Positions 31,027 through 48,900 of a stretch of DNA of 64,000 nt are shown here, piece by piece. The notes beneath the pieces are model-generated. The model saw only the letters and a list, made by a program, of their open reading frames with translations, searched no databases and was not told the origin of the DNA. The position numbers and the translations under genes are program-made. The DNA is from Plantibacter flavus (lineage in GTDB: Bacteria > Actinomycetota > Actinomycetes > Actinomycetales > Microbacteriaceae), in the NCBI RefSeq assembly GCF_002024505.1, contig NZ_CP019402.1, positions 1,054,001-1,118,000 on the forward strand, written 5' to 3'. Positions within the stretch are counted from its first letter, which is position 1, and every line of letters starts with the position of its first letter.

Positions 31027-31062
31027 TTGACAGTCCGCTGGAGCGGGTGAGTAATGTGTCAC
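31027..31062 (+). promoter_or_regulatory. GH127 operon promoter with overlapping operator
   Basis: A perfect -35 TTGACA (31027-31032) is followed after 19 bp by TAATGT (31052-31057). The sequence AGTAATGTGTCAC (31050-31062) covers the -10 box and recurs exactly, in reverse orientation, at 42222-42234 in front of the second half of the locus. It is the best candidate operator for the GntR/FCD protein encoded at 41475. Confidence 0.65.
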
Positions 31063-31082
31063 CCACCACAAACCCGGATCCG

Positions 31083-31103
31083 TGTACTGTGTCACACGGT
31101 ACA
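31083..31103. promoter_or_regulatory. 21-bp palindromic operator in the GH127 leader
   Basis: Arms TGTACTGTG and CACGGTACA form an imperfect palindrome whose centre again contains TGTGTCAC (31088-31095), the core shared with the sites at 31055-31062 and 42222-42229. It lies just downstream of the expected transcription start and directly upstream of the GAAAGG ribosome-binding site, a position suited to repression. Confidence 0.6.
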
Positions 31104-31119
31104 GAAAGGCCTGTCGCCC

Positions 31120-33138
31120 ATGAGCTTCGACGAAGACGCCCGAGCAGCGAGCACCGCGGTGCGCGCGGGAGGCCACTACGCCGCCGTCGCACCGATCGCC
31201 GGAGTCCGCATCCCGCTGGGCGCCGGACAGGTCACGCTGGGCGACGGCGAACTCGGTGCGTGGCAGCGTCGGAACCGGGGTGCCACCGTCCCGCACTCGA
31301 TCGAGCAGCTCCGCCTCGCGGGCAACCTCGACAACCTCGCCCGGATCGCCGACCCCGGCGACGGCACTTCACGCTTCCGCGGGCGCTACCCGTTCCTCGA
31401 CACGGACGTCTTCAAGACCCTGGAAGGCCTCGCCTACCTGCTCGCCGAGGACGAGGCCGTCGGCGCGGCACCCGGCGATGTCCGCGACTTCTACGAGGAG
31501 GCCGTCGGCGTCATCGAAGCCGCGCAGCGGGAGGACGGGTACCTCAACTCCTACTTCCAGGCTCCGGAGATCGAGAAGGAACCCTGGGAGGACCTCGCCT
31601 GGGGCCACGAGTTGTACAACCTCGGGCACCTCATCCAGGCGGCGATCGCCGCGAAGCGTCGTCTCGGCGACGACCGTCTGCTGAACGTCGCCCGGGCCTT
31701 CGCCGACCTCGCCGTCGAACGGTTCGGACCGGACGGCGACCCGCAGGTGTGCGGGCACCCCGAGGTCGAGATGGCCCTGGTCGAGCTGTTCCGTGAGACC
31801 GGCGTGCGGTCCTACCTCGAGCTCGCGACCGCGTTCGTCGACCGCCGCGGCCACGGCACGGTCGAGCTCCGGGTCTTCCCCGCCGAGTACTTCCAGGACT
31901 CGGCCCCACTGCGCGACCTCGACTCCGTGACCGGACACGCCGTCCGCATGGCGTACCTGGCCGCCGGAGCGACCGACGTCGCCCTCGAACACGGCGACCA
32001 GGAACTGCTCGCGTCGCTGCAGCGGCTCTGGGACGACATGGTGGAGACGAAGCTCTACCTCACGGGCGGCCTCGGGAGCCGACACTCCGACGAGGCGATC
32101 GGCGACCGCTACGAGCTGCCGTCCGAACGCTCCTACAGCGAGACGTGCGCCGCGATCGCCGTGATGCAGTGGGGCTGGCGCCTGTACCTCGCGAACGGGT
32201 CGGCGGCCGTCCTCGACACCGTCGAGACCGTCCTCTACAACGCCTACGCCGCCGGCCTCTCCGCGGACGGCACGGCCTTCTTCTACGACAACCCGCTGCA
32301 GCGTCGCCCCGACCACCTGCAGCGGTCGGGGGCGGAAGCGGACGGCGAACTCCTCAGGCGGAGCTGGTTCGGGTGCCCGTGCTGCCCGCCGAACATCGTG
32401 CGCTGGATCGCGGAGCTGCAGGACCACCTCGCGACGTCGACTCCCGCCGGTGTCGAAGTCGCGCACCTCACCGCGGCGTCGATCACGACCGAGCGGCTCT
32501 CCGTCACCGTCGACACCGCGTACCCGTGGGACGGAGCGGTCACCGTGACGGTGGACACCGCCGCCGACGACGAGGTCGAGCTCGCGATCCGCATCCCCGC
32601 GTGGGTCGTCGGAGGTTCCATCCGCGTGGGTGGATCGGCCGCGCCGCTCGAACCCGTCGACGGATGGATCCGGGTCCGGCGCTGGTGGCGTGCGGGCGAC
32701 ACCCTGGAACTCGACCTCCCGATGCCCGTCCGGGCGCACGGCGCGCACCCCTCCGTCGACGCCCTCCGCGGCTCGATCGCCTTCGCCCGCGGACCGATCG
32801 TCTCCTGCGCCGAGCAGCAGGACACGACGGCGGACCTCGACCTCCTGCGGTTCTCCGGAGCCGACGCGGATCTCGCGGTCGTCGAGCACCGTCGGATCCT
32901 GGCCCGGGAGGGGATCGACGCCGTCGCACTCCTCGTCCCGGCGGCCGTCGACGCTCCCGCTCCGGCCGTGCTCTACCCGGTCCTCTCCGGTGCGCCCGAG
33001 GCCGAGCCCGCCGCGGCACCGCTCGTCGATGTCGCGACGACAGCCGCGGCGACGCAGACCACCGCGACCCTCATCCCCTACGCCCTCTGGGGCAACCGCG
33101 AACCGGGCGCCATGCGCGTCTGGTTCCGCGCCCGCTGA
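31120..33138 (+). CDS. GH127 beta-L-arabinofuranosidase
   Basis: This 672-residue glycoside hydrolase has an (alpha/alpha)6 barrel and C-terminal beta-sandwiches. The unusual zinc-thiolate active site of GH127 is complete: Glu341-x-Cys343 (SETC) and the Cys421-Cys422 pair in CPCCPPN. By comparison with HypBA1 of Bifidobacterium longum, the first of this pair is the nucleophile. Characterised GH127 enzymes release L-arabinose from beta-linked arabinofuranosides, including arabinosyl-hydroxyproline, though other specificities exist. There is no signal peptide, so it acts inside the cell, after import. The ATG at 31120 has GAAAGG upstream and directly follows the operator. It is first in the locus, 77 bp before the ABC binding-protein gene. 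Confidence 0.9.
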   Translation: MSFDEDARAASTAVRAGGHYAAVAPIAGVRIPLGAGQVTLGDGELGAWQRRNRGATVPHSIEQLRLAGNLDNLARIADPGDGTSRFRGRYPFLDTDVFKTLEGLAYLLAEDEAVGAAPGDVRDFYEEAVGVIEAAQREDGYLNSYFQAPEIEKEPWEDLAWGHELYNLGHLIQAAIAAKRRLGDDRLLNVARAFADLAVERFGPDGDPQVCGHPEVEMALVELFRETGVRSYLELATAFVDRRGHGTVELRVFPAEYFQDSAPLRDLDSVTGHAVRMAYLAAGATDVALEHGDQELLASLQRLWDDMVETKLYLTGGLGSRHSDEAIGDRYELPSERSYSETCAAIAVMQWGWRLYLANGSAAVLDTVETVLYNAYAAGLSADGTAFFYDNPLQRRPDHLQRSGAEADGELLRRSWFGCPCCPPNIVRWIAELQDHLATSTPAGVEVAHLTAASITTERLSVTVDTAYPWDGAVTVTVDTAADDEVELAIRIPAWVVGGSIRVGGSAAPLEPVDGWIRVRRWWRAGDTLELDLPMPVRAHGAHPSVDALRGSIAFARGPIVSCAEQQDTTADLDLLRFSGADADLAVVEHRRILAREGIDAVALLVPAAVDAPAPAVLYPVLSGAPEAEPAAAPLVDVATTAAATQTTATLIPYALWGNREPGAMRVWFRAR

Positions 33139-33215: not shown

Positions 33216-34910
33216 ATGAAGCAACGATTCTCCATCCCCGCCCTCGCGGCGGCGGCCGTCCTCCTCCTCGCGGGGTGTACCTCCGCGGGTTCGGGCTCGG
33301 GAGGTGACGGACCGTCCAGCACCCCGGTGAAGGGCGGCACGGTCGACGTCCTCTTGAACGCGGACTTCTCGCACCTCGACCCGGTCCAGGGCTTCGACGG
33401 CGGCGTGAACAACTTCTACCGTCTGATCTACCGCACGCTGACGACGCAGTCCACGGGCGAGGGCGCCAAGGGCACCGAGATGGTCCCCGACCTCGCGACC
33501 GACCTCGGCACGGTGAGCGACGACGGCCTCCAGTGGACGTTCACGCTCAAGGACGACCTGAAGTTCGAGGACGGCACGCCGATCACGAGCAAGGACGTGA
33601 AGTTCGGCGTCGAGCGCTCCTTCGACCCGGCCATCGCCGTCGGATCGCCCTACGCCCGCCTCACGATCGCCGGCACGGACTCGTATGAGGGCCCGTACAT
33701 CACGGGTGACCTGCCGTCCATCCAGACGCCGGACGACCAGACCATCGTCTTCACGCTCAAGGAGCCGTTCGCCGACTTCGCGAGCGTCGTCGGGCAGAAC
33801 AGCTTCACACCCTTCCCCGCCGACACCGAGCGGGTGACGACGGCGAGCCTCGACAAGATGCCGATCGCCTCCGGCCCCTACAAGGTCGACAGCTACGAGC
33901 GCGGTTCGCAGCTGAAGCTCGTCCGCAACGACTCGTGGGACCCGAAGACGGACGACGTCCGCAAGGCCTACCCGGACGGCTTCGACTTCACCTTCGGTCT
34001 CGACGCCTCGACCATCGACGAGCGCATGATCGCCGGCCAGGGTGACGACGCGAACGCGATCGCCGGGTCCGTCCAGGCGGCCTCCATCTCCCGGATCCAG
34101 ACGCCGGCCCTCAAGGCACGCACCATCGCCGGTCTCCAGGGCTGCACCACGTACATGGGTCTGAACACGACCAAGCCGAACATGGACAACCCGCTGGTCC
34201 GCCAGGCCATCGCCTACGCCATCGACCGCGAGTCGGTGAAGGACGCCTCGGGCGGGTCGCAGCTCGCGGACATCGCGACCACCATGCTGCCGCCCACCGT
34301 CGCCGGTCACACCGAGTTCGACCTCTACCCGAGCAAGGACAACGCCGGCGACCCGGAGAAGGCCAAGGAACTCCTCGCCGAGGCGGGCCTGCCCGACGGC
34401 TTCTCCTTCACACTCGACATCCGCAGCCAGCCCAAGATGCAGGCGCAGGCCGAGGCGGTGCAGCAGGCGCTCGCGAAGGCCGGCATCACGGTGAACTTCA
34501 ACCTCATCGACACCTCGACCTACTACGAGGTCATCGGCACGACGTCGCAGCAGAACGACGCCGCCATCACCGGCTGGTGCCCGGACTGGGCCTCAGGCTC
34601 GACCTTCCTGCCGCCGCTCTTCGACGGTTCGCAGATCTTCCCGAAGGGCAACTCGAACATCGCGCAGCTGAACGACCCCGCCGTCAACGAGCGCATCGCC
34701 GAGATCCGCGCGATGACCGACACCGACGAGGCCAACGCCGCCTGGGGCGCGCTCGACGAGCAGATCCAGAAGCTCGTACCGACGGTGCCGCTGCTGTTCG
34801 AGAAGACGGTCATGGTCGTCGGAGCCAACGTCGCGGGTGCGTACTCGCACGCCGGGTACTCCGGTGGCATCGACTACGTGTCCGTCGGCCTGTCCTCGGC
34901 CGGCGAGTAG
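33216..34910 (+). CDS. Peptide ABC transporter substrate-binding lipoprotein
   Basis: This 564-residue family 5 extracellular solute-binding protein (DppA/OppA/NikA fold) has a lipoprotein signal with lipobox LLAGC (Cys21). A Gly/Ser linker follows, then the typical VPDLATDL, FTLKDDLKFEDG and NPLVRQAIAYAIDRE segments. It captures the ligand outside the membrane for the permeases encoded next. Family members bind di/oligopeptides, nickel or glycosides. The enzymes encoded around it suggest hydroxyproline-containing, possibly arabinosylated, peptides. A pyrimidine-rich 77-bp gap precedes it. It is 21 bp from the first permease gene. Confidence 0.9.
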   Translation: MKQRFSIPALAAAAVLLLAGCTSAGSGSGGDGPSSTPVKGGTVDVLLNADFSHLDPVQGFDGGVNNFYRLIYRTLTTQSTGEGAKGTEMVPDLATDLGTVSDDGLQWTFTLKDDLKFEDGTPITSKDVKFGVERSFDPAIAVGSPYARLTIAGTDSYEGPYITGDLPSIQTPDDQTIVFTLKEPFADFASVVGQNSFTPFPADTERVTTASLDKMPIASGPYKVDSYERGSQLKLVRNDSWDPKTDDVRKAYPDGFDFTFGLDASTIDERMIAGQGDDANAIAGSVQAASISRIQTPALKARTIAGLQGCTTYMGLNTTKPNMDNPLVRQAIAYAIDRESVKDASGGSQLADIATTMLPPTVAGHTEFDLYPSKDNAGDPEKAKELLAEAGLPDGFSFTLDIRSQPKMQAQAEAVQQALAKAGITVNFNLIDTSTYYEVIGTTSQQNDAAITGWCPDWASGSTFLPPLFDGSQIFPKGNSNIAQLNDPAVNERIAEIRAMTDTDEANAAWGALDEQIQKLVPTVPLLFEKTVMVVGANVAGAYSHAGYSGGIDYVSVGLSSAGE

Positions 34911-34931: not shown

Positions 34932-35891
34932 ATGTCGTCGTCCGTTCCCAGTGAGCTGACCACCGTCGCCGAGGAGGTGGGTGCGCCGGTCGGTGCGCCC
35001 ACCCCCGCGCGGCGGGTGATCGCCACCCTCCGTTCCAGCCCACCGGTGCTGCTCAGCGTCGCGTTCATCGTGCTCGTCGTGCTGCTCGCGATCCTCGCCC
35101 CACTGATCACCGCGATCAGCGGCTGGGGTCCGTACACCTTCGACAAGTCGGCGGTGGACTCCGACCTCGGCGGCGTGCCGATCGGCAACCTCGGCGGGAT
35201 CTCCGCCGAGCACTGGTTCGGGGTCGAACCCGGGAACGGACGCGACATCTTCGCGCGCATCGCCTTCGGTGCGCAGGTGTCGCTGTCGATCGCCGTCTCG
35301 GCGACCATCGTCACCACCGTGCTCGGCGTGGTGCTCGGCATGCTCGCCGGCTTCTACGGCGGGTGGGTCGACCAGGTCGTCTCCCGCGTCATGGACTTCC
35401 TCATGGCGTTCCCGTCGCTCATCTTCATGATCGCGCTCCTGTCGGCCCTGCCCGCCGGCAACCGACCGGTCCTGCTCGTCGTGGTGCTGAGCCTCTTCGG
35501 CTGGCCGTACACCGCCCGGGTGGTGCGCGGTCAGGCGATGTCGCTGCGGACGAGCGAGTTCGTCGAATCGGCGCGTGCGTCGGGCGCCGGGGGCATCCGC
35601 ATCGTCTTCCGCGAGATCCTGCCGAACCTCCGCGGCACCATCATCGTCCTGGCCACCCTCGCCGTTCCCGGTTACATCGGCACGGAGGCTGGCCTCTCCT
35701 TCCTCGGCGTCGGCGTCACCCCGCCCACGCCCAGCTGGGGCCAGATGATCGCGACCGCGGTCGGCTGGTACGCGGTCGACCCGATGTACTTCCTGATCCC
35801 CGGCACCTTCCTGTTCCTCACGGTGCTGTCCTTCACCGTGCTCGGCGACCGCCTGCGCAAGGCCCTCGACTCGGGAGACGCCGCCTCATGA
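34932..35891 (+). CDS. Peptide ABC transporter permease (DppC-like)
   Basis: This 319-residue permease has an N-terminal helix at about 37-60 followed by the BPD_transp_1 domain with five helices. The EAA loop is visible as ESARASGAGGIRIVFREILPN (centre only). The DppC/OppC order N-terminal extension and GRDIFARIAFGAQVSL segment identify the subunit. It pairs with the DppB-like permease, whose start overlaps its stop by 4 bases. Confidence 0.9.
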   Translation: MSSSVPSELTTVAEEVGAPVGAPTPARRVIATLRSSPPVLLSVAFIVLVVLLAILAPLITAISGWGPYTFDKSAVDSDLGGVPIGNLGGISAEHWFGVEPGNGRDIFARIAFGAQVSLSIAVSATIVTTVLGVVLGMLAGFYGGWVDQVVSRVMDFLMAFPSLIFMIALLSALPAGNRPVLLVVVLSLFGWPYTARVVRGQAMSLRTSEFVESARASGAGGIRIVFREILPNLRGTIIVLATLAVPGYIGTEAGLSFLGVGVTPPTPSWGQMIATAVGWYAVDPMYFLIPGTFLFLTVLSFTVLGDRLRKALDSGDAAS

Positions 35892-36883
35892 CCCTCTACC
35901 TCCTGCGCCGCATCGCGTCGGCGATCGGCATCCTGCTGCTCATCAGCCTCTTCACCTACGCCATCTTCTTCCTGCTGTCGCCCGACCCGGCGGTGCAGAT
36001 CTGCGGCAAGACCTGCACCCCCGACCGCATCGACCAGATCCGGGCGCAGCTCGGGCTCGACCAGCCGTTCTGGCAGCAGTACCTCGAATTCATCCGGGGG
36101 ATCGTCATGGGCCGGAGCTACGGGGAGGGTGCCTCGGCGGTCTCCTGCGCGGCGCCGTGCCTCGGCTTCAGCTTCCAGACGAACGAGTCCGTCATGGACA
36201 TGATCACCGCGCGCTTCCCCGTGACCGCGACGGTCGCGATCGGTGCGGCGGTCCTCTGGCTGCTCGTCGGCGTCAGCGGTGGCCTGCTCAGCGCCGTCAA
36301 GCAGGGGACCGGCTGGGACCGTGGGGCGATGATGGTCGCGCTCGCCGGCATCAGCCTGCCGAACTACTTCCTCGCGCTCCTCCTGCAGTACGTCCTCGTG
36401 GTGCAACTGCAGATCCTGCCGTTCCCGCAGGCCGTACCGTTCGCCGAGGACCCGGTGCGCTGGTTCCAGAACTACCTCATGCCGTGGATCGTGCTCGCCC
36501 TCGGCTACGCGTCGATGTACGCGAGGCTCGTCCGGTCGAACGTCATCGACACCCTCGGTGAGAACTTCATGCGGACCGCCCGGGCGAAGGGCCTGCCCGC
36601 GCCGCTCATCCTGCGCCGCCACGCGCTGCGCCCGGCGCTCACCCCCGTCGTCACGCTCTTCGGCATGGACTTCGCGGGCCTCCTCGGTGGCGCCCTCATC
36701 ACCGAGACGGTGTTCGGACTGAACGGCGTCGGCAAGCTCGCCGCCGACTCGATCGCGAAGAACGACCAGCCGGTCATCATGGGCGTCACCCTCCTGGCCG
36801 CGTTCTTCGTGGTCATCGGCAACGTCGTGGTCGACGTCGCGTACACGTTCCTCGACCCGAGAGTGAGAGTGAAGAGCGCATGA
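35888..36883 (+). CDS. Peptide ABC transporter permease (DppB-like)
   Basis: This 331-residue permease begins TLYLLRRIAS, the usual DppB/OppB opening. A periplasmic loop contains two cysteine pairs (ICGKTC and CAAPC, about residues 38-43 and 88-92) that could form disulfides; this is not a standard family feature. The EAA motif lies in RTARAKGLPAPLILRRHALRPA. The start at 35888 overlaps the previous stop (ATGA). With the DppC-like protein it forms the membrane channel of the importer. Confidence 0.9.
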   Translation: MTLYLLRRIASAIGILLLISLFTYAIFFLLSPDPAVQICGKTCTPDRIDQIRAQLGLDQPFWQQYLEFIRGIVMGRSYGEGASAVSCAAPCLGFSFQTNESVMDMITARFPVTATVAIGAAVLWLLVGVSGGLLSAVKQGTGWDRGAMMVALAGISLPNYFLALLLQYVLVVQLQILPFPQAVPFAEDPVRWFQNYLMPWIVLALGYASMYARLVRSNVIDTLGENFMRTARAKGLPAPLILRRHALRPALTPVVTLFGMDFAGLLGGALITETVFGLNGVGKLAADSIAKNDQPVIMGVTLLAAFFVVIGNVVVDVAYTFLDPRVRVKSA

Positions 36884-37761
36884 GCCCCACCGTCACCAGG
36901 ACCATCTCCCTGCCCGTCCCCGGGGCGGCGCTGCTCGAGGTCGACGACCTCACGGTCACCTTCCCGACCACCTCCGGTGACGTCGACGTGGTGCGGAAGG
37001 CGTCGTTCACGGTCCAGCACGGCCAGACCCTCGGCATCGTGGGCGAGTCCGGCTCCGGCAAGTCCATGACCTCGCTCGCGATCATGGGGCTGCTCCCGAA
37101 CGGCGGGCGCACGACCGGCAGCGTCCGACTGAGCGGACACGAGCTCGTCGGTCGCAGCGACCGCGAGATGCGTCGCGTGCGCGGCGACCGGATCGCGATG
37201 GTCTTCCAGGACCCGCTCTCCTCGCTCAACCCGTACTACACCGTCGGGCTGCAGATCGAGGAGGCGTACCGCGCCCATCGCGGCGGTTCCCGGAAGGCCG
37301 CCAGGGCCGTCACGATCGAAGCCCTCGAACGGGTCCGCATCGCGGACGCCTCCCGGCGCGTCGACCACTACCCGCACCAGTTCTCGGGCGGCATGCGGCA
37401 GCGCATCATGATCGCCATGGCGCTCTGCCTGGAACCCGACCTGCTCATCGCGGACGAACCGACGACAGCACTCGACGTCACCGTCCAGGCGCAGATCCTC
37501 GACCTCCTCTCCGAACTGCAACGGGAGACCGGCACCGGCATGATCTTCATCACCCACGACCTCGCCGTGGTCAGTCAGGTCGCCGACGACGTGCTCGTCA
37601 TGCGTGGCGGCGACCCCGTCGAGATGGGCACCGCCGAGCAGATCTTCTCCCGGCCGCAGGCGCCGTACACCCGCGCACTGCTCGACGCCCTGCCGCGGAT
37701 CGACGACCCGTTCACCGAGCGGCCGACGGCACCCGCCACGACCGGAGAGGGACGGGCATGA
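36880..37761 (+). CDS. Peptide ABC transporter ATPase (DppD-like)
   Basis: This 293-residue ATPase has Walker [10 protein letters not shown]-loop [11 protein letters not shown], signature FSGGMRQR, Walker [13 protein letters not shown] and H-loop THDLA. The C-terminal [10 protein letters not shown] and the PxP-containing tail are typical of oligopeptide-transport ATPases. It starts 4 bases inside the previous gene and ends 4 bases inside the next, so the transporter subunits are translationally coupled. Confidence 0.9.
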
Positions 37762-38636
37762 ACGACGCACCAGTGCTCCTGCAGGCCACCGGGCTCACGA
37801 AGGACTTCACGACCAGGGGTGACGGGGCGTTCCGCGCACGCACCACCCGGTTCCGCGCCGTCGACGACGTCGGGTTCGCCGTCCGCGCCGGCGAGACGCT
37901 CGGCATCGTCGGGGAGTCGGGCAGCGGCAAGTCGACGACCGCGCGGATGATCGCGAAGCTCATCGAACCGACCGCCGGCACGATCACCTTCGACGGCGAG
38001 GACGTCACCACCGCGCGTGGCCCGGCGCTCGCCGCGTTCCGGACGAAGGTGCAGGTCGTCTTCCAGGACCCGTTCTCCTCCCTGAACCCCCGGCACACCG
38101 TCGAGCGCATCGTGTCGGCACCGCTCGACTACCAGGGCATCACCCCGAAGCAGGGCAAGCGCGCCCTCGTGCGCGACCTGCTCGACCGCGTCGGCCTGAA
38201 CCCCGACCACCTCCAGCGCTATCCGCGGCAGTTCTCGGGCGGCCAGGCCCAGCGCATCGGGATCGCCCGGGCGCTCGCCGTCTCCCCGAAGCTCGTCATC
38301 TGCGACGAGGCGGTGTCGGCGCTCGACGTGTCGGTGCAGGCACGCATCATCGACCTGTTGCGGGACCTGCAGGCCGAGCGCGGCCTGAGCTACCTGTTCA
38401 TCGCGCACGACCTCGCCGTCGTGCGGCAGATCGCCCACGACGTCGCCGTCATGCACCGGGGCAAGGTGGTCGAGCAGGGTGACCGCGAGGCGATCTTCGA
38501 CCACCCGCAGGACGACTACACGAAGACCCTGCTCGCCGCCGTGCCCTCCATCGACCCGAGCTGGGAGGCCGCGCGTGCCACCATGCTCGGACAGGAGCGG
38601 ACGCACGGATCGACCGCCGGAAGGACAGAGGCATGA
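37758..38636 (+). CDS. Peptide ABC transporter ATPase (DppF-like)
   Basis: This 292-residue ATPase has Walker [25 protein letters not shown], signature FSGGQAQR and Walker B LVICDEAVSALD. A Glu of the usual DEPT is replaced in sequence context by DEAV, a common DppF/OppF variant, and the catalytic Glu is kept. It pairs with the DppD-like subunit. It overlaps the peptidase gene downstream by 4 bases, linking import directly to intracellular peptide hydrolysis. Confidence 0.9.
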   Translation: MNDAPVLLQATGLTKDFTTRGDGAFRARTTRFRAVDDVGFAVRAGETLGIVGESGSGKSTTARMIAKLIEPTAGTITFDGEDVTTARGPALAAFRTKVQVVFQDPFSSLNPRHTVERIVSAPLDYQGITPKQGKRALVRDLLDRVGLNPDHLQRYPRQFSGGQAQRIGIARALAVSPKLVICDEAVSALDVSVQARIIDLLRDLQAERGLSYLFIAHDLAVVRQIAHDVAVMHRGKVVEQGDREAIFDHPQDDYTKTLLAAVPSIDPSWEAARATMLGQERTHGSTAGRTEA

Positions 38637-41433: not shown

Positions 41434-41474
41434 CCTGAGCGGACCGTGGTGGGAGACGAAGGATGGGAGTCGCG

Positions 41475-42152
41475 ATGAGCATGTCGGCGATCCGACCGGC
41501 CGAGGAACGGCTGAGCCTGCGGGCGCAGGTGGAGCGGGCGGTGTCCGCGGCGATCATCTCGGGCGAGCTCGCGCCGGGGACGATGATCTCGGTACCGACG
41601 CTGGCGGTGCAGTTCAACGTCTCGGCGACGCCCGTCCGTGAAGCGATGCTCGATCTCGAGAAGCGCGACTTCGTGGAGGCGGTCCGGAACAAGGGGTTCC
41701 GTGTCACGGTCGTCAGCGAGGCCTCGCTCCGCAACACGGCGCAGATCCGCCAGCTCCTCGAGCCGCCCGCGATGGCGGACCTGGCGGAGGTCTTCGACCA
41801 CGGGTCGCTGCCCGAGCTCCGGCAGCAGGCTGACGACATCGTGGCCGGTGCCCGCGACGGCGACCTGACCCGGTACCTCGAAGCCGACCAGGCGTTCCAC
41901 CTCGCGCTCACCGCGAAACTCGGCAACCCGCTGCTCGTCGAGCTCGTCGCGGACCTCCGCGGACGTACCCGCCTCGTGGGGTTGGCCGCCATGCTCGATT
42001 CGCAGCAGCTCGACCGCTCGGCCGTGGAGCACCACGAGCTCCTCGACGCCCTCGAGCGGGGTGACGGGGCCGCCGCTCGCGAGCTCATGCACCGACACAT
42101 CGGGCACACCACCGGCTGGTGGGCCGGCAAGCCGGAATCCGACGCCGAGTAG
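41475..42152 (+). CDS. GntR/FadR-type regulator with FCD ligand domain
   Basis: This 225-residue regulator has an N-terminal winged helix (about 14-80; SVPTLAVQFNVSATPVREAM as recognition region) and a C-terminal FCD domain. The metal/ligand residues of that domain are visible as EADQAFH, EHHELLDAL and HRHIGHT. FCD regulators bind small carboxylates or amino acids, so hydroxyproline or a pathway intermediate is a reasonable ligand (inference). The ATG at 41475 with GGGAG 5 nt upstream is preferred over the ATG at 41463. It lies exactly between the uptake/hydrolysis half and the catabolic half, and its likely operators lie in front of both. Confidence 0.85.
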   Translation: MSMSAIRPAEERLSLRAQVERAVSAAIISGELAPGTMISVPTLAVQFNVSATPVREAMLDLEKRDFVEAVRNKGFRVTVVSEASLRNTAQIRQLLEPPAMADLAEVFDHGSLPELRQQADDIVAGARDGDLTRYLEADQAFHLALTAKLGNPLLVELVADLRGRTRLVGLAAMLDSQQLDRSAVEHHELLDALERGDGAAARELMHRHIGHTTGWWAGKPESDAE

Positions 42153-42202: not shown

Positions 42203-42234
42203 TTGCCTGTCGAGTGAATGTGTGACACATTACT
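42203..42234 (+). promoter_or_regulatory. Operator/promoter region of the hydroxyproline catabolic operon
   Basis: AATGTGTGACACATT (42217-42231) is a perfect odd palindrome. On the minus strand it includes AGTAATGTGTCAC (42222-42234), identical to 31050-31062 in front of GH127. TTGCCT at 42203-42208 is a possible -35, but the -10 cannot be assigned firmly. The palindrome shape fits a GntR/FadR-type dimer. Confidence 0.65.
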
Positions 42235-42270: not shown

Positions 42271-43467
42271 ATGACCCGCATCGTCATCGTCGGCGCCGGC
42301 ATCGTCGGTGCGGCCTGCGCGCGGATCCTCGCCCGCCGCGGCGCCGAGGTCGTCGTATTGGACCGTTCGGCGGCCGCCGGCGGTACGAGCGGCTCGGGGG
42401 AGGGGAACCTGCTCGTCTCCGACAAGGGGCCCGGCCCCGAACTCGACCTCGCCCGGTACGCTTCACGCCTCTGGCCCGTCGTCACCGCCGAACTCAGTGC
42501 CGAACTCGGACCGGCCTTCCCGAGCATCGAGTTCGAGCGCAAGGGCGGCATCGTGGTCGCCACCACCGAGGCCGGCGCGCAGCCGCTGCTCGACTTCGCC
42601 GCCGCCCAGCGCGCGGCCGGTGTCGACGCCCGGCCCCTCACCGAGGACGAGCTGCTCGCGGCGGAGCCGTCGATCACCCGCTCCTCCACGGCGGCCGTCC
42701 ACTATCCCGAGGACGCACAGGTCCAGCCCGTCATCGCCACGGAGGCCCTGCTCGCCTCGGCCCGGCGGGCGGGCGCGATCGTGCGCACCGGCGTCACCGT
42801 GACGGGCGGCGTCCGGAGCGCGACCGGTCGCCTCACGGGTGTCCGGACCTCCGTGGGCGACGCCTCGGGCGATGCGGTCCTCGTCTGCGCCGGACCGTGG
42901 TCGGCCGAGCTCGGCGAGGTGCTCGGGGCACCCGTCCCGGTCCGTCCCCGTCGCGGCATGGTGCTCGTCACCACCCGCATGCCGCACCGCGTGCACCACA
43001 AGGTCTACGACGGCGACTACTTCGGGGCCACGCAGTCGAGCGACGCCTCGCTCCAGACCTCGAGCGTCGTCGAGTCGACGGCTGCGGGCACCGTCCTCAT
43101 CGGATCGAGTCGGCAGCAGATCGGGTTCGACGCGCGCCTCGACGTCGACGTGCTCCGCGAGGTCGCGGCGAAGTCGCTGCGCCTCTTCCCGTTCCTCCGC
43201 GACGCCTCGGTCATGCGCAGCTACGGTGGCTTCCGGCCGTACATGCCCGACCATCTCCCGGTCATCGGCCCCGACCACCGCCTGGACGGCCTGTGGCACG
43301 CGACGGGCCACGAGGGCGCCGGCATCGGGCTGGCCCTCGCGACGGCCGAGCTCATCGGCGCCCGCCTGCTCGGCGGATCGGCCGACCTCGACGACGCCCC
43401 GTTCCAACTCGACCGCCCGGGGCTCGCCCCGCACCTGCGCGTCGACCGGCCGGCGGAGGTGGCCTGA
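42271..43467 (+). CDS. FAD-dependent D-hydroxyproline dehydrogenase, DAO-like subunit
   Basis: This 398-residue flavoprotein of the D-amino-acid oxidase/glycine oxidase (DAO) family has an N-terminal VGAGIVGAACA dinucleotide-binding motif and a C-terminal YGGFRPYMPDHLPVIGP with HATGHEGAGIGLA. In heteromeric D-hydroxyproline dehydrogenases this subunit oxidises cis-4-hydroxy-D-proline to 1-pyrroline-4-hydroxy-2-carboxylate. The assignment rests on the two partner subunits encoded directly downstream and the complete pathway around it. AAAGGA precedes the ATG at 42271. It overlaps the 2Fe-2S gene by one base. Confidence 0.85.
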   Translation: MTRIVIVGAGIVGAACARILARRGAEVVVLDRSAAAGGTSGSGEGNLLVSDKGPGPELDLARYASRLWPVVTAELSAELGPAFPSIEFERKGGIVVATTEAGAQPLLDFAAAQRAAGVDARPLTEDELLAAEPSITRSSTAAVHYPEDAQVQPVIATEALLASARRAGAIVRTGVTVTGGVRSATGRLTGVRTSVGDASGDAVLVCAGPWSAELGEVLGAPVPVRPRRGMVLVTTRMPHRVHHKVYDGDYFGATQSSDASLQTSSVVESTAAGTVLIGSSRQQIGFDARLDVDVLREVAAKSLRLFPFLRDASVMRSYGGFRPYMPDHLPVIGPDHRLDGLWHATGHEGAGIGLALATAELIGARLLGGSADLDDAPFQLDRPGLAPHLRVDRPAEVA

Positions 43468-43817
43468 TGGTCTCGAGACGACTGCCCGCGACGAGCGATC
43501 GGATCCTGCCCGGCACGGAGGACGCGCTGCGCATCGACCTCGACGGGACGCCCGTCGACGGACTCCGCGGCCAGACGATCGCCGGTGTCCTGTTGGGTTC
43601 CGGCGTCCTCGCCTGGCGCCGCACCAGCAGGGCCGGGAAGCCGCGCGGCGTCTTCTGCGGCATCGGGGTCTGCTTCGACTGCATCGTCACGGTGAACGGC
43701 CAGCGGGACGTCCGTGCCTGCCAGCGTCGCGCCGCGGACGGCGACCGCATCGAGACGCAGCAGGACGCCCTCCCGGAACCCACGACGGAGAACGACCCGT
43801 TCGGGGACCGGACATGA
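43467..43817 (+). CDS. 2Fe-2S subunit of D-hydroxyproline dehydrogenase
   Basis: This 116-residue ferredoxin-like protein has the plant-type 2Fe-2S ligand set Cys64-x4-Cys69-x2-Cys72-x12-Cys85. The small (2Fe-2S)-binding subunit of multi-component opine/D-hydroxyproline dehydrogenases has this size and motif. It should carry electrons between the flavin subunits. Its start overlaps the upstream stop by one base and its stop overlaps the next start by four, as expected for subunits made in equal amounts. Confidence 0.85.
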   Translation: MVSRRLPATSDRILPGTEDALRIDLDGTPVDGLRGQTIAGVLLGSGVLAWRRTSRAGKPRGVFCGIGVCFDCIVTVNGQRDVRACQRRAADGDRIETQQDALPEPTTENDPFGDRT

Positions 43818-45331
43818 GCGCCCGGCAGCGGGAGGTCGTCGTCGTCGGTGCAGGTCCCGCCGGCCTCCAGGCCGCGCTCGCCGCCCGGGCCCTCGGTGCG
43901 TCCGTCACCCTGCTCGACGCCTCGGACGAGCTCGGCGGTCAGTACTGGCGGCACCTGCCGGCCAGCCGGCCGTCTGCGGCCGAGGCCTCGCTGCATCACG
44001 GGTTCGAGCGCTTCGTCGCCATGCGCGCGGCGCTCGACGCCGACGACGGCTGCACGGTGATCACCGAGGCGCAGGTGTGGGCGATCGACGTCGACCGCGC
44101 CGCCGCCGACCACGGCTCCGACGACGTCTCCAGGGCGACCGGCCTGCGTCTGCACGTCCTGGTCGGACCGCCGGACGGCACCGACCGCACGGCGCTCACC
44201 CTCCGGCCGGACGCGCTCGTCCTCGCGACCGGCGCCCATGACCGCACGCTGCCCTTCCCCGGCTGGGACCTCCCCGGCGTGTTCTCGGCCGGTGCCGCCC
44301 AGGCCCTCGCGAAGGGCGAGCGGGTCACCGTCGGTCAGCGGGTGGTCGTGGCCGGTGCCGGACCGTTCCTGTTGCCGGTGGCCGCGTCCTTGACCGCGAC
44401 CGGATCACGCGTCCTCGGCGTCTACGAGGCCACGACCGTCGGCGGACTCGCCAGGGGCTGGCTCCCCAAGCCCTGGCAGCTGCTCGGCGTGACCGGGAAG
44501 GCCGGTGAGCTGCTCGGCTACGTCGGCGGCCACCTCCGTCACCGGATCCCGTACCGCGTCGGCCACGCGGTGGTCGCTGCGCACGGCACGGACCGGGTCG
44601 AGCGCGTGACCATCGCCGCCGTCGACGCCGACTGGTCGCCGATCCCCGGGACCGAGCGCACGGTCGAAGCGGACGCCGTCTGCGTCAGCCACGGGTTCAC
44701 CCCACGGCTCGAGCTGCCCGTCGCGGTCGGCTGCGCGCTCACCGAAGCCCGGTTCGTCCAGGTCGACGACGAGCAGCGCACGAGCGTCCCGGCCGTCTTC
44801 GCGGCGGGGGAGATCACCGGTATCGGTGGTGTCGACGCCGCGCTCGCCGAGGGCGCGATCGCGGGACACGCTGCCGCCGGCGGACTCCACGGCGCCTCCG
44901 GCATCCGTGCCGCCGTGAGCCGACGCGACACGTTCCTCGCCTTCGCCGACCGGCTCGAACGCGCCCACGGCATCCGCGCCGGCTGGAGCGACTGGCTCGA
45001 CGACGACACCACCATCTGCCGCTGCGAGGAGGTCGACTACCGCTCGTTGCGCACGACGGCGACCGCCACCTGCGCGACCGGCCTGCGCTCCCTCAAACTC
45101 AGCACGCGCGCCGGGCTCGGGATCTGCCAGGGGCGCATGTGCGGTCGCACCGTCGAGGAGCTCCTCCACCGCGTCGCAGCCGAATCCGGCGGCAGCGGCC
45201 TCATCGACGGCGTCTCGAGCGACCGCCGGCCCATCGCCTCCCCGCTGCGCATCGGCGAACTCGCCGCGCAGGCACCGGGACACCCTCCCCACGAACCGCC
45301 GTCGACCCCGACGGCCGAACACCCAGGATGA
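43814..45331 (+). CDS. NAD(P)/FAD-dependent oxidoreductase subunit with BFD-like Fe-S domain
   Basis: This 505-residue flavoprotein has VVGAGPAGLQAA at the N-terminus and a second dinucleotide site VVVAGAGPFLLPVA in the middle. The C-terminal BFD-like [2Fe-2S] module has CRCEEV and CQGRMC. This is the architecture of the alpha subunit of opine oxidase and D-hydroxyproline dehydrogenase complexes. The final 40 residues are a Pro-rich tail with no known role. It likely passes electrons to the respiratory chain or another acceptor. A 41-bp gap with GGAAAGGA separates it from the deaminase gene. Confidence 0.85.
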   Translation: MSARQREVVVVGAGPAGLQAALAARALGASVTLLDASDELGGQYWRHLPASRPSAAEASLHHGFERFVAMRAALDADDGCTVITEAQVWAIDVDRAAADHGSDDVSRATGLRLHVLVGPPDGTDRTALTLRPDALVLATGAHDRTLPFPGWDLPGVFSAGAAQALAKGERVTVGQRVVVAGAGPFLLPVAASLTATGSRVLGVYEATTVGGLARGWLPKPWQLLGVTGKAGELLGYVGGHLRHRIPYRVGHAVVAAHGTDRVERVTIAAVDADWSPIPGTERTVEADAVCVSHGFTPRLELPVAVGCALTEARFVQVDDEQRTSVPAVFAAGEITGIGGVDAALAEGAIAGHAAAGGLHGASGIRAAVSRRDTFLAFADRLERAHGIRAGWSDWLDDDTTICRCEEVDYRSLRTTATATCATGLRSLKLSTRAGLGICQGRMCGRTVEELLHRVAAESGGSGLIDGVSSDRRPIASPLRIGELAAQAPGHPPHEPPSTPTAEHPG

Positions 45332-45372
45332 CCGACCGGTCTCCGCACCATTCCCTCGGAAAGGAACCACCC

Positions 45373-46287
45373 ATGGCCAAGCAGTTCGACCTCGGCGGCG
45401 TCATCGTCGCGACCACCCTCGCGTTCAAGGAGGACGCCTCGGCGCCCGCAGGCCTCGCCGTCGACTACGACCGCTTCGCCGAGCACTGCAACTGGCTCAT
45501 CGAGAACGGTTGCCGAGGCGTCGGCCCGAACGGCTCGCTCGGTGAGTACTCGTCACTCACGGACGCCGAGCGTCGCAAGGTCATCCAGGTCGCGGTCGAC
45601 ACCGTCGGCGACCGCGGCCTCGTCGTCGCCGGGGTGCACGGCGTCGGCTGGCACCAGGCCCAGCAGTGGGCCGAGTACGCGAAGGAGGACGGCGCGGACG
45701 GCGTCCTGCTCCTGCCGCCCACCATCTACCGGGCGAACGACGACGAGGTCATCGAGCACTACAGCCGCGTGGACGAGGTCGGCCTGCCGATCATGGCCTA
45801 CAACAACCCCATCGACACCAAGGTCGACCTCACGCCCGACCTGCTCGTCGAACTCGCCAAGCTCGAGCACGTCGTCGCCGTGAAGGAGTTCTCGGCCGAC
45901 ATCCGTCGGGTGCTCGAGATCCAGGACAAGACCGACCTCGACGTCATCGCGGGAGCGGACGACCTCCTCTTCGAGTCCCTCGTCGCCGGTGCGGTCGGCT
46001 GGTTCGCCGGCTACCCGAACGCCTTCCCGCGCGAGGCCGTCGAGCTGTACACACTCGTCACCTCCGGTCGCGTCGACGAGGCCCGCACCCTCTACCGCGA
46101 GCTCGTGCCCGTCTTCGGGTGGGACTCGAAGACGGAGTTCGTCCAGGCCATCAAGCTGTCGATCGACATCGCCGGCGAGAGCTACGGTGGTCCGACGCGT
46201 CCGCCGCGCGGTCCGCTGAACGCGCTCCAGACGGAGCAGGTCACGACGCATACTCGTCGCGCGCTCGACTACCTCGCGGCACGCTGA
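45373..46287 (+). CDS. DapA-family 1-pyrroline-4-hydroxy-2-carboxylate deaminase
   Basis: This 304-residue TIM-barrel enzyme of the dihydrodipicolinate synthase/N-acetylneuraminate lyase family has the Schiff-base Lys171 (VAVKEFS), Tyr143 (AYNNP) and a GPNGSLGE carboxylate-binding loop. In hydroxyproline pathways this family member (LhpC/HypD) deaminates and dehydrates pyrroline-4-hydroxy-2-carboxylate to alpha-ketoglutarate semialdehyde. Lysine-biosynthetic DapA would normally carry GTTGE here, so the loop and context argue against that role. The start at 45373 follows GGAAAGGA. Confidence 0.85.
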   Translation: MAKQFDLGGVIVATTLAFKEDASAPAGLAVDYDRFAEHCNWLIENGCRGVGPNGSLGEYSSLTDAERRKVIQVAVDTVGDRGLVVAGVHGVGWHQAQQWAEYAKEDGADGVLLLPPTIYRANDDEVIEHYSRVDEVGLPIMAYNNPIDTKVDLTPDLLVELAKLEHVVAVKEFSADIRRVLEIQDKTDLDVIAGADDLLFESLVAGAVGWFAGYPNAFPREAVELYTLVTSGRVDEARTLYRELVPVFGWDSKTEFVQAIKLSIDIAGESYGGPTRPPRGPLNALQTEQVTTHTRRALDYLAAR

Positions 46288-46342
46288 GCCTGGTGGCCGA
46301 CGCGACACCCCGACCACGACCACCAGTCCTGAGAGGCACACC

Positions 46343-47344
46343 ATGAAGTCCTCCCGCATGATCAGTGCGGTCGACTCGCACACCGAGGGCATGCCGACCC
46401 GCGTCGTCACCGGCGGGGTCGGCGTGATCCCCGGCGCGACCATGAACGAGAAGCGCCTCCACTTCATGGAGCATCTCGACGACCTGCGGCTCTTCCTCAT
46501 GAACGAGCCCCGCGGTCACGCGGCGATGAGCGGGGCGATCCTGCAGCCGTCCACGCGTGCGGACTGCGACTGGGGCGTCGTGTACATCGAGGTGTCCGGC
46601 TGCCTGCCGATGTGCGGGCACGGCACCATCGGGGTCGCGACGGTCCTCGTGGAGACCGGCATGGTGGAGGTGGTCGAGCCGGTCACGACGATCCGGCTCG
46701 ACACCCCCGCCGGACTCGTGATCGCGCGGGTCGACGTCAGCGACGGGCACGCCGACCGTGTGACGATCGAGAACGTCCCGAGCTATGTCGACCGCCTCGA
46801 CGCCACGATCGAGGTGCCGGGCCTCGGCACCGTGCCGTACAGCCTCGCGTTCGGCGGCAACTTCTACGCGATGGTCGACCTCGACGACGTGGGCCTGCCC
46901 TTCGACCGCGACCGTCAGCAGGACATCCTCGACACGGGCCTGCGGATCATGGCGGCGATCAACGAGCAGGCGCCGCCCGTGCACCCCGAGATCGCCGGCC
47001 TCGACCACTGCCACCACGTCGAGTTCATCGCGCCGGGATCCGACGCCGTGCTGTCCCGGCATGCGATGGCCATCTTCCCGGGGTGGTTCGACCGCTCGCC
47101 CTGCGGCACCGGAACCTCGGCCCGCATGGCCGAGCTCTGGGCCCGCGGTGAGCTGCCGCTCGACCAGGACTTCGTCAACGAGTCCTTCATCGGTAGCCGG
47201 TTCACCGGCCGGCTGATCGCCGAGACGTCGGTGGCCGGCCGGCCGGCCGTCATCCCGACCATCTCCGGTCGGGCCTGGGTCACCGGTATCGGCTCCTACC
47301 TCCTCGACCCCGCCGATCCGTTCCCGACCGGCTTCCAGTTCTGA
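46343..47344 (+). CDS. 4-Hydroxyproline 2-epimerase (proline racemase family)
   Basis: This 333-residue proline racemase-fold enzyme has both catalytic cysteines: Cys91 in MCGHGT and Cys254 in SPCGTGTSA. The dehydratase branch of the family (trans-3-hydroxy-L-proline dehydratase) has Thr in place of the second Cys, so this member should be a two-base epimerase/racemase. It would convert trans-4-hydroxy-L-proline to cis-4-hydroxy-D-proline, the first step of the pathway. It is a cytoplasmic, cofactor-free enzyme. It lies 55 bp after the deaminase gene and 26 bp before the aldehyde dehydrogenase gene. Confidence 0.9.
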   Translation: MKSSRMISAVDSHTEGMPTRVVTGGVGVIPGATMNEKRLHFMEHLDDLRLFLMNEPRGHAAMSGAILQPSTRADCDWGVVYIEVSGCLPMCGHGTIGVATVLVETGMVEVVEPVTTIRLDTPAGLVIARVDVSDGHADRVTIENVPSYVDRLDATIEVPGLGTVPYSLAFGGNFYAMVDLDDVGLPFDRDRQQDILDTGLRIMAAINEQAPPVHPEIAGLDHCHHVEFIAPGSDAVLSRHAMAIFPGWFDRSPCGTGTSARMAELWARGELPLDQDFVNESFIGSRFTGRLIAETSVAGRPAVIPTISGRAWVTGIGSYLLDPADPFPTGFQF

Positions 47345-47370
47345 ACCACACCACGATCCCGGAGGATCAC

Positions 47371-48900
47371 ATGACGACCACGCCAGCCCCCGACGCCCCC
47401 ATCGCGGAGACCACCCACGAGCAGCTCGAGGAGGTCCTCCGGGGAGCCGCCGCGGCTGCACCCGCGTGGGCCGCGACGCCGGCGGACGCCCGTGCGAGTG
47501 CGCTCGTCGCCGTCGCCGACGCCCTGCAGGCCCACGCGGACGAGCTCGTCCCGGTCGGCATGGTCGAGACGGGGCTCGCCGAGGCCCGGCTCCGCGGCGA
47601 GCTCCTCCGCACCGCCGTGCAGCTGCGGTTGTTCGCGGAGACGATCGTCGACGGCTCTTACCTCGACGTCCGGATCGACGAGGCCGACCCGGATTTCGCG
47701 CTCGGCGCGCGCCCGGAACTCCGCCGCGTCCTCGTGCCGCTCGGCCCGGTCGTGAACTTCGCGGCGAGCAACTTCCCCTTCGCCTTCTCGGTCGCCGGTG
47801 GTGACACCGCGTCGATCCTCGCGGCCGGATGCCCGGTGATCCTCAAGGTGCACGACGGGCACCCGCGGCTCTCGCTCGCGACGGCGGCCGTCGTCGAGGC
47901 CGCGCTCCGGGCGTCCGGGGCTCCTGACGGCGTCTTCCAGACGATCATCGGCCAGGAGGCCGGCGTCGTCGCGCTGCAGGACGAGCGCGTCCGGGCCGGC
48001 TCCTTCACGGGCTCCCTCCGGGCGGGTCGGATCCTCGCCGACCTCGCGGCGGCACGCCCCGTCCCGATCCCGTTCTTCGGCGAGCTCGGCAGCGTCAACC
48101 CCGTGTTCGTGACGCAGACCGCCCTCGACGAGTCCGCAACGGCCATCGCGACGGGATTCGTCACGAGTGTCGCGGGCTCGGCGGGTCAGCTGTGCACGAA
48201 GCCCGGCTTCGTCTACCTGCCGGACGGCGCGGGGCTCGACGAGTCGATCCGTGAGGCTGCTGCCGCGGTCCCCGAGCACCGACTCCTGAACGACCGCATC
48301 ACGGCCGGGTACCAGGCGAGGCGCGACACGATCCTCGGCACCGACGGTGTGCGGATCATCGCCGAGGGGTCGCTCCGGGTCGACGAGGACGGCGACGGCT
48401 GGGCGACCCCCACGATCATCGCCGTCTCACTCGACGCGCTGCGGGCCGGTCGGGACGCCCTGCTCGACGAGGCCTTCGGTCCGTTGTCGATCCTCGTCGA
48501 GGTCCCGGCCGGAACAGCGCTCGCACCGCTCGTGCCGGAGTTCTGCGAGGGCAATCTGACGGCCACCCTGCACGCCGGTGCCGACGAGACGAGCGACGAC
48601 CTCGTGGAACTCGTCCAGCAGCTCTCGGCGCACGCCGGACGGGTGCTGTTCGGCGGTTGGCCCACCGGCGTCGCGGTCACGCCCGCCATGCAGCACGGCG
48701 GACCGTGGCCGGCGACGACGAACGACTCGAGCACCTCGGTGGGGACGGCCGCGATCACCCGTTTCCTGCGGCCGGTCGCGTTCCAGAACATGCCGGACCG
48801 GTTCCTGCCCGAGGTGCTGCGATCGTCGGCCACCGGCGTCCCGCGGACGATCGCACCCGCGGGCGAGTCGACGCACTGGGGCGAGGCGGCTCAGCGCTGA
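47371..48900 (+). CDS. Alpha-ketoglutarate semialdehyde dehydrogenase
   Basis: This 509-residue aldehyde dehydrogenase has a catalytic Cys275 in AGQLCTKPG and a general base Glu238 in FGELGSVNP. The FGELGSVNP and QLCTKPG variants are those of the 2,5-dioxovalerate/alpha-ketoglutaric semialdehyde dehydrogenase subgroup (usually NADP+-preferring). It completes the pathway by making alpha-ketoglutarate, which enters the TCA cycle. It is the last gene of the locus; the next gene is convergent. Confidence 0.9.
   Translation: MTTTPAPDAPIAETTHEQLEEVLRGAAAAAPAWAATPADARASALVAVADALQAHADELVPVGMVETGLAEARLRGELLRTAVQLRLFAETIVDGSYLDVRIDEADPDFALGARPELRRVLVPLGPVVNFAASNFPFAFSVAGGDTASILAAGCPVILKVHDGHPRLSLATAAVVEAALRASGAPDGVFQTIIGQEAGVVALQDERVRAGSFTGSLRAGRILADLAAARPVPIPFFGELGSVNPVFVTQTALDESATAIATGFVTSVAGSAGQLCTKPGFVYLPDGAGLDESIREAAAAVPEHRLLNDRITAGYQARRDTILGTDGVRIIAEGSLRVDEDGDGWATPTIIAVSLDALRAGRDALLDEAFGPLSILVEVPAGTALAPLVPEFCEGNLTATLHAGADETSDDLVELVQQLSAHAGRVLFGGWPTGVAVTPAMQHGGPWPATTNDSSTSVGTAAITRFLRPVAFQNMPDRFLPEVLRSSATGVPRTIAPAGESTHWGEAAQR

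Follow-up and report, generated by a model that had tools for sequence, protein, structure and literature searches.

Gene content of the locus

The window analysed here, a stretch of 64 kb (64,000 nucleotides) from the 4.2-Mb, single-contig genome of Plantibacter flavus, contains 15 genes, all on the + strand and spanning positions 31120-48900, which are predicted to encode a glycosidase of family GH127, a peptide-type ATP-binding cassette (ABC) importer, two proline-specific peptidases, a regulator and a pathway for hydroxyproline (Hyp) catabolism. Gene families were assigned by Pfam and NCBIfam profile matches to the reading frames of the window, and seven adjacent gene pairs overlap by 1-4 bases, as in an operon. 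An earlier interpretation of the letters (the sequence-only reading) had proposed 15 co-oriented genes forming a complete locus for the use of arabinosylated Hyp peptides. All 15 were found in the order it gave, but the word complete did not hold, as no outer (secreted) protease, alpha-L-arabinofuranosidase, GH121, GH43 or arabinose enzyme was found by Pfam among the 15 genes (the first three were not searched for in the rest of the genome). A match to L-arabinose isomerase is present elsewhere in the genome, outside the locus.

The first gene (31120..33138, +) encodes a predicted beta-L-arabinofuranosidase-type hydrolase of 672 aa, assigned from PF07944, PF20736 and PF20737 (catalytic, middle and C-terminal domains), its Zn/nucleophile residues and its N-terminal hydropathy. 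It is followed by a peptide-type solute-binding lipoprotein of family 5 (SBP; 33216..34910, +; PF00496, SBP_bac_5), in which a lipobox-like LLLAGC was read by eye, and by two BPD_transp_1 permeases of DppC/OppC type (34932..35891, +) and DppB/OppB type (35888..36883, +, a chosen start within the longer matching frame 35363-36883). Two ATPases, of DppD type (36880..37761, +) and DppF type (37758..38636, +), each match ABC_tran and oligo_HPY / NCBIfam models. One SBP_5 protein, two permeases and two oligo_HPY ATPases make up a Dpp/Opp-type set, and the five-part peptide-type importer proposed earlier is thus present. The best solved relative of the SBP, 2wok, bears the name oligopeptide binding protein 2 of clavulanic acid biosynthesis, which would fit a peptide ligand for the importer; nickel and heme binders are also among its solved relatives. 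Downstream lie genes for an S33 prolyl aminopeptidase-like enzyme (38633..39946, +; Abhydrolase_1) and an M24 aminopeptidase P-like (Xaa-Pro) enzyme (39943..41433, +; AMP_N and Peptidase_M24). The S33 protein scores 35.7 bits on the NCBIfam prolyl aminopeptidase model, for which the cut-off is 259.75, and its best solved relative is Arabidopsis AT3g61540 (E 8e-99).

The next gene (41463..42152, +) encodes a GntR/FCD regulator, labelled HypR-like from its GntR and FCD domains and its place beside the Hyp operon. Related regulators (identity 58, 66, 67 and 54%) stand beside Hyp operons that have no GH127 (L084, L086, L088 and L091, respectively). The operon itself encodes predicted beta-like (42271..43467, +; DAO), gamma-like (43467..43817, +; Fer2_4 in the longer frame 42897-43817) and alpha-like (43814..45331, +; Pyr_redox_2 and Fer2_BFD in the longer frame 42839-45331; PyrR below) subunits of D-hydroxyproline dehydrogenase, a pyrroline-4-hydroxy-2-carboxylate deaminase-like protein of the DHDPS family (45373..46287, +; DHDPS in the longer frame 45139-46287, with its role taken from pathway position), a 4-hydroxyproline 2-epimerase-like protein (ProR; 46343..47344, +; Pro_racemase) and an aldehyde dehydrogenase (ALDH; 47371..48900, +; Aldedh), whose designation as alpha-ketoglutaric semialdehyde dehydrogenase-like follows from its pathway position and whose nearest solved relatives are 3v4c (named NADP+ aldehyde dehydrogenase) and 1eyy. 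By family, therefore, the genes claimed for the route from Hyp to alpha-ketoglutarate all appear to be present. The order DAO-Fer2-PyrR/BFD-DHDPS-ProR (beta, gamma, alpha, deaminase, epimerase) is that of SCO6289-SCO6293 in Streptomyces coelicolor, where the same five Hyp genes occur together with HypR (PMC6608401, Table 2).

The ProR-family protein contains both catalytic cysteines (C91 and C254) and was compared with proline racemase at published sites that discriminate between epimerase, proline racemase and trans-3-hydroxy-L-proline (T3LHyp) dehydratase (PMC1964878, PMC4364671). Site 1 is Ser63 by alignment to AsProR (Phe in proline racemase) and site 4 is His225 (Leu or Cys in proline racemase). 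At these residues the protein carries the signature of Hyp epimerase (4HypE), and identification as a proline racemase was dropped on Ser63 and His225, though model scores do not decide the matter.

The GH127 enzyme, its clade and its neighbours

The GH127 gene most likely begins at 31120, and not at 31027, where the sequence-only reading opens the locus, or at 31054 (the longest frame), because a ribosome-site-like sequence and a conserved start are found there; the frame from 31054 would take in the operator sites described below. The PF07944 match scores 274 bits (cut-off 24.9). Counted from the ATG at 31120, the intact active site claimed for the protein (E341, C343, C421 and C422) is exact, and these residues are invariant across nine aligned GH127 orthologues. 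They align to identical residues of HypBA1 (E338, C340, C417 and C418), of which we take C340 and C418 to be site residues, and E325, H163 and C419 likewise align to identical HypBA1 residues (E322, H142 and C415). Residues E322, E338, H142, C415 and C417 of HypBA1 are named in PMC10728902. Among 85 clade proteins (duplicates included), the strict patterns CxCCPxN, GHE[LM]Y, GS[RT]HxxE and [YF][SG]ETCA were found in 85, 84, 81 and 57, respectively.

No signal peptide was seen by eye on the window protein, and an N-terminal stretch with a mean hydropathy of at least 1.8 was found in 0 of 85 clade GH127s as against 78 of 86 binding proteins (both sets contain duplicates). The enzyme is therefore most likely cytoplasmic, with import preceding removal of the sugar. 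Extracellular deglycosylation as the first step was dropped on the same counts; the sequence-only reading had listed deglycosylation ahead of import.

Orthology to HypBA1 was considered and dropped: in the tree, the GH127 clade forms one side of a 100/100 branch, and HypBA1, 4qjy and 6ex6 group together elsewhere (in this tree the three reference sequences are incomplete and differ in composition). As the protein is not a HypBA1 orthologue, we infer from its context that it hydrolyses the bond between beta-L-arabinofuranose and Hyp. Two further PF07944 proteins are encoded outside the window (G000:C1:2044000 and G000:C1:292163; L059 and L058), of which that at G000:C1:2044000 is weakly alignable to the window GH127 (no match at 1e-15) and has the longest branch of the tree.

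The distribution of the clade, defined as proteins with at least 54% identity to the window protein, was established in a relatives set of 199 genomes and in named loci from a contig scan. Identity falls sharply from this level to about 50% or less in non-clade proteins. Clade GH127s occur in 14 of the 199 genomes (the window's genome counted), representing 7 genera of one family, and in all 14 (13 fetched plus the window) they adjoin SBP-DppCBDF and M24 genes, in 13 also S33. From the contig scan, the best 80 of 152 loci were kept, giving 72 clade and 8 non-clade loci; counts refer to 10-kb flanks, with matches taken by identity whatever their length, and the species overlap with the relatives set. 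The clade loci include Plantibacter, Agromyces, Okibacterium, Glaciibacter, Clavibacter, Microbacterium, Planctomonas, Isoptericola, Krasilnikoviella, Terrabacter, Arthrobacter, Specibacter, Kribbella, Nonomuraea, Streptosporangium and Streptomyces, and by the rows of the tree the clade is seen in at least nine actinobacterial families. An SBP was found at 70 of the 72 clade loci (one of them, L136, a 7% remnant), DppC, DppB and DppD each at 68, DppF at 67, S33 at 61, M24 at 53, GntR at 38, DHDPS at 31, DAO at 23 and ProR at 19; the two loci without an SBP (L133 and L154) both stop at a contig edge. Outside the clade, 23 stretches were fetched, 22 drawn from the 100 non-clade matches and the last a further PF07944 locus; neither these nor the eight named non-clade loci have this importer, the closest resemblances being one SBP at 38% (L073) and ATPases at 27-34%. 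The search for GH127 beside Dpp and racemase-family genes that had been proposed earlier returned a clade-specific linkage to the importer, with ProR also in the flank at 19 of the 72 clade loci. At L136 (Streptomyces, 10001-16500), GH127, S33, M24, DHDPS and ProR are kept with the 7% SBP match and no Dpp match between them, a deletion-like arrangement.

Linkage to the Hyp genes was also assessed at the level of whole genomes. ProR was found anywhere in the genome in 39 of 40 clade genomes as against three of seven non-clade genomes (47 of the 80 loci were covered), and, among the 199 relatives, in 14/14 clade genomes as against 26/185 others. At the level of genera, the 7 with the clade all lie within the 29 ProR genera of 131 (P = 1.4e-5, deeper kinship being ignored). 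The halves are arranged on one strand in Plantibacter and, as far as the flank shows, in Clavibacter; as divergent operons around a common gap in G058, Isoptericola and Terrabacter; and with the deaminase gene, in some cases also the epimerase gene, after M24 in Nonomuraea and some Streptomyces. They are unlinked in G084 and G009, and in Kribbella ProR is present in 8 of 9 genomes tested, with none within 70 kb of GH127 by coordinates. Two Hyp clusters without GH127 (L086 and L088) nevertheless have S33 and M24, and within the same 20 kb they also have Dpp-type genes that are more distant (36-51%), so that a core of peptide and Hyp genes exists apart from the GH127 clade.

Other members of the family also occur at Hyp clusters. 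In G027, which has SBP-DppCBDF-S33-M24 and Hyp genes, a 950-aa PF07944 protein encoded between M24 and DHDPS replaces the clade GH127; its best solved relatives are 5opj, 6yqh and 8qf8, followed by 8k7x and 8k7y (named beta-L-arabinofuranosidase entries), and 5opj is presumably a GH146 enzyme. In G106, of the same genus, an other-clade GH127 adjoins GntR-DAO-Fer2-PyrR-DHDPS-ProR (L175:13139-17900), with two sugar-type permeases, not Dpp ones, upstream by eye; this may be a sugar-importer version of the same idea. No PF07944 gene was found near ProR by coordinates in the other 24 of the 26 ProR genomes without the clade. By our reading, three different beta-arabinofuranosidase-family enzymes would thus have joined Hyp clusters. 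The G027 and G106 cases are the strongest indication from sequence that it is Hyp that carries the sugar.

Two alternatives bear on these neighbourhoods. According to the first, the locus serves bare Hyp/Pro peptides and the GH127 acts on another beta-L-arabinofuranoside (an arabinan side chain or rhamnogalacturonan II) that happens to be present in the same plant material, with induction in common. Members of its family act on other sugars, its sole NCBIfam match is to aceric acid hydrolase (329, below the cut-off of 950), it is no HypBA1 orthologue and some versions of the cluster have no GH127 (L079 and L086), all of which would fit. However, clade GH127 adjoins the peptide-type importer wherever the sequence continues (L136 being a remnant), a HypR-type site lies directly upstream of it and two other PF07944 enzymes stand at Hyp clusters. 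Nor was any further conserved neighbour found, since none of the 40 best groups outside the 15 genes is present at more than 11 of 72 loci, and by eye these groups look genus-bound or like shadow frames (the groups were not assigned to families). We regard this explanation as distinctly unlikely. According to the second, the SBP imports free arabinosyl-Hyp (Ara-Hyp) or a small beta-arabinoside, and the peptides cleaved by the peptidases arise inside the cell or enter by a separate route. Such a ligand would be consistent with the varied non-peptide ligands of family 5 SBPs (nickel and heme) and with the sugar-type permeases seen beside GH127 and the Hyp operon in G106, but it would leave aside the S33 and M24 genes at 61 and 53 of the 72 loci and the oligopeptide binder named as nearest solved relative, and it seems unlikely to us.

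Predicted HypR-type operators

Upstream of GH127, two HypR-type operators are predicted, TAATGTGTCACCCACCA at 31052..31068 (20.9 bits) and TGTACTGTGTCACACGGTACA at 31085..31101 (14.6 bits), the latter inside a 21-nt near-palindrome (31083-31103), and a third, GAATGTGTGACACATTA, lies upstream of the Hyp operon at 42216..42232 (27.3 bits, the best in the window); none is assigned a strand. The second operator, as TACTGTGTCAC, is two mismatches from TACAATGTCAC, the autoregulatory site of S. coelicolor HypR (PMC6608401). Scores were obtained with a matrix built from the DAO promoters of 12 loci outside Plantibacter, chosen for clear sites out of 39 DAO promoters. At 12 bits or more, the matrix matches only the GH127 promoter (31052 and 31085) and the DAO promoter (42216) in the 64 kb, and lowering the threshold to 10 bits adds one unrelated place (62032, 10.2 bits). 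The score of the GH127 promoter was reached by none of 500 mononucleotide shuffles.

Among the 14 clade genomes in the relatives set, the same promoter scores at least 14.6 bits in 13, and in the fourteenth an operator-like site lies just inside the extrapolated GH127 start. In G058, the preset promoter stretch scored -0.5 bits and a 26-bit site is found at L049:5291, a short way ahead of position 5326, where the aligned codons begin; this site was probably missed owing to the extrapolated start. In G084, where the halves are more than 1.1 Mb apart, a site is present on both (28.3 and 26.2 bits). Searching the whole P. flavus genome with RTGTGTGACAYATTA at up to two mismatches returned three places, two of which are the GH127 and DAO promoters (0 for the reversed control); the third, at 2,421,639, adjoins TetR-like and alcohol-dehydrogenase-like genes by eye and was set aside. 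At 8 bits or more, matches were found at the promoters of SBP (1/71), DppC (1/70), DppB (0/69), DppD (2/72), DppF (0/72), S33 (0/62), M24 (0/55), Fer2 (0/14), PyrR (0/14), ALDH (0/7), ProR (1/27) and non-clade GH127 (1/32), and at those of GntR (7/41) and DHDPS (6/33), which can be the first genes of Hyp operons. Over 440 kb of control loci, one match of at least 15 bits was found, upstream of the second GH127 of G049 (L052:10467). This genome is Okibacterium-like, and its second, non-clade GH127 (L052:8304-10505; 47%) is sister to the clade in the tree. The site at 10467 (20.7 bits) directly precedes it and, by eye, sugar-ABC-like and LacI-like genes are close by; it may be a second regulon member. 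Further HypR-type sites of 22-23 bits lie outside known operons at L075:15077 and L086:12462-12485.

A test that does not depend on the matrix used three 11-mers of S. coelicolor HypR, bound in electrophoretic mobility shift assays and one of them also identified by footprinting (PMC6608401). At up to two mismatches these are found upstream of 50 of 73 clade GH127s (7.2 in shuffles) and at 15 of 27 DAO promoters (3.0 in shuffles), compared with control counts of 3/71 for SBP, 2/70 for DppC, 1/69 for DppB, 1/62 for S33, 0/54 for M24 and 1/9 for non-clade GH127; the 73 promoters are not independent events because many are close kin (Nonomuraea, Kribbella). Exact copies lie upstream of seven clade GH127s (two Kribbella, Arthrobacter, Specibacter and three Streptomyces), and the 27 with an 11-mer at up to one mismatch all have it in the same orientation, 21 of them at 12-60 nt upstream of the extrapolated start. 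The exact core ATGTCAC occurs upstream of 23/80 clade GH127s (shuffles 1.5) and 32/49 DAO genes (0.5), with control values of 4/80 for SBP (0.8), 4/71 for M24 (2.9), 1/73 for S33 (1.4), 0 for DppC and DppB and 1/32 for non-clade GH127 (0.6). Counts of plain operator patterns in the window are weakly above chance (3 against 0.52 expected, reached by 3 of 100 shuffles, and for a second pattern 7 against 3.5, reached by 9 of 100), and the operator argument is carried by the matrix, the genome-wide pattern and the published 11-mers, not by these counts. From synteny and the operator counts together, the gene arrangement is not due to chance.

A further alternative, which would fit the control of a putative collagenase gene by HypR in S. 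coelicolor (PMC6608401), is that the locus belongs to a HypR regulon for animal-derived, collagen-type Hyp, as proposed for that organism, with the GH127 incidental. The GH127 gene precedes the importer genes, however, and many GH127 promoters carry a HypR-type site. Collagen Hyp is, to our knowledge, not arabinosylated, and we consider this explanation very improbable.

A candidate system for arabinosylated hydroxyproline peptides

The locus probably encodes a HypR-type-controlled catabolic system for beta-L-arabinosylated Hyp peptides, that is, fragments of extensins or other hydroxyproline-rich glycoproteins (HRGPs). Outside the cell, such fragments would be made by other enzymes, and the SBP-DppBCDF transporter would import short Hyp-containing (glyco)peptides or Ara-Hyp. 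In the cytoplasm, the cysteine glycosidase GH127 would remove beta-L-arabinofuranose from the Hyp hydroxyl, the S33 and M24 peptidases would trim Pro/Hyp peptides to free Hyp, and the epimerase, three-subunit D-Hyp dehydrogenase, deaminase and semialdehyde dehydrogenase would convert Hyp to alpha-ketoglutarate; the L-arabinose would be used via genes elsewhere, as the isomerase match suggests. Both operons would be controlled through the same operator by the GntR/FCD protein, acting as a repressor that senses Hyp or a product of Hyp. Gene content, active sites, linkage, the shared operator-like sites and the family enzymes at Hyp clusters are read from the sequence, and from them we infer the substrate, the import of glycosylated rather than bare peptides, the order of steps, binding of these sites by GntR and the inducer. 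The earlier proposal of one regulated system is thus well supported by the linkage in many genera, the operator shared by both promoters and the family enzymes at Hyp clusters, and is revised as regards step order and completeness.

A number of observations weigh against this reading. The GH127 is about equidistant from HypBA1 (284 bits), 4qjy (309) and 6ex6 (305) and lies outside the reference group, and its substrate is therefore not fixed by sequence; the aceric acid hydrolase match counts in the same direction. The ProR protein scores 336.6 bits on the 4HypE model (cut-off 376) and 343 on that of proline racemase (cut-off 556), its best solved relative is a proline racemase, and its site 5 (Ile244 beside Phe245) is unsure in alignment. 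Of the 40 ProR-bearing relatives, 26 have no clade GH127, and SBP orthologues of at least 57%, found in 16 relatives, include two without it (G027 and G181, both with ProR nearby) besides the 14 clade genomes. At 27 of the 72 named loci the flanks contain none of DAO, DHDPS and ProR (some at contig ends; 12 from Kribbella). As for the operators, the matrix is not wholly independent, its training sites having been picked via a consensus from the DAO site of the window; 23 of the 73 clade promoters lack any HypR 11-mer at up to two mismatches; and DppF shows an excess of 11-mers above chance (16/68, shuffles 5.6).

Two parts of the proposed system are already known separately, the Hyp half with HypR from S. 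coelicolor (PMC6608401) and Hyp-arabinoside hydrolases from Bifidobacterium and Xanthomonas (PMC7263609, PMC6085000). The HypBA1/HypBA2/HypAA system of Bifidobacterium longum resembles the present one in combining an intracellular GH127 with an ABC importer for Hyp-linked beta-L-arabinosides of HRGPs, but is described with a sugar importer that takes up beta-arabinobiose (beta-Ara2) freed outside by GH121 (PMC7263609). In the locus described here, the importer is instead of peptide type and is joined by proline peptidases and Hyp catabolism; GH121 and GH43 are absent from the 15 genes, and the GH127 is not an orthologue of HypBA1. In Xanthomonas euvesicatoria, XeHypBA1/BA2/AA include a GH127 acting on Ara-Hyp, and the enzymes are described as extracellular; the word 'transporter' is absent from the text of that paper and Hyp catabolism is unmentioned in its passages on these enzymes (PMC6085000). 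S. coelicolor shares the GntR/FCD regulator and a related operator with the window, its Hyp operon is induced by L-Hyp and knockout of its epimerase abolishes growth on Hyp; unlike the window, no semialdehyde dehydrogenase gene is reported near the operon, and the HypR regulon table lists a putative collagenase instead of a GH127, peptide importer or proline peptidase (PMC6608401). A network of the proline racemase superfamily had predicted, from gene neighbourhoods, the association of 4HypE with an oxidase, deaminase and semialdehyde dehydrogenase and reported growth of Streptomyces lividans on Hyp, the terms 'arabino', 'glycos' and 'peptide' being absent from its main text (PMC4113996). A single system combining GH127, a peptide importer and Hyp catabolism, of which the sequence-only reading knew no description, was not found among the open-access papers listed by the searches (titles and abstract starts; subscription papers mostly lie outside these).

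A bolder extension would be that Actinomycetota take up O-arabinosylated Hyp glycopeptides intact through an importer dedicated to them and deglycosylate them inside, with natural substrates for plant dwellers including arabinosylated plant signal peptides. We think this improbable; if true, the system would also clear plant peptide signals from the apoplast.

Extensins and other HRGPs are abundant in plant walls, and the use of both their sugar and their Hyp by bacteria of soil and leaves is known in parts only, which the locus ties into one likely regulon. Clade GH127s also occur in Clavibacter, with the importer at L140, L146, L151 and L164, whereas L154 stops at a contig edge. They qualify the 2018 remark that Xanthomonas alone among plant pathogens was found to have hypBA1/BA2/AA homologues (PMC6085000); these GH127s are, however, no orthologues of HypBA1, and BA2/AA were not sought in Clavibacter. 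The locus also offers a substrate hypothesis for this clade of GH127s, hitherto uncharacterised, and for the peptide importer beside it, and the HypR regulon would extend from collagen to the glycoproteins of the plant wall.

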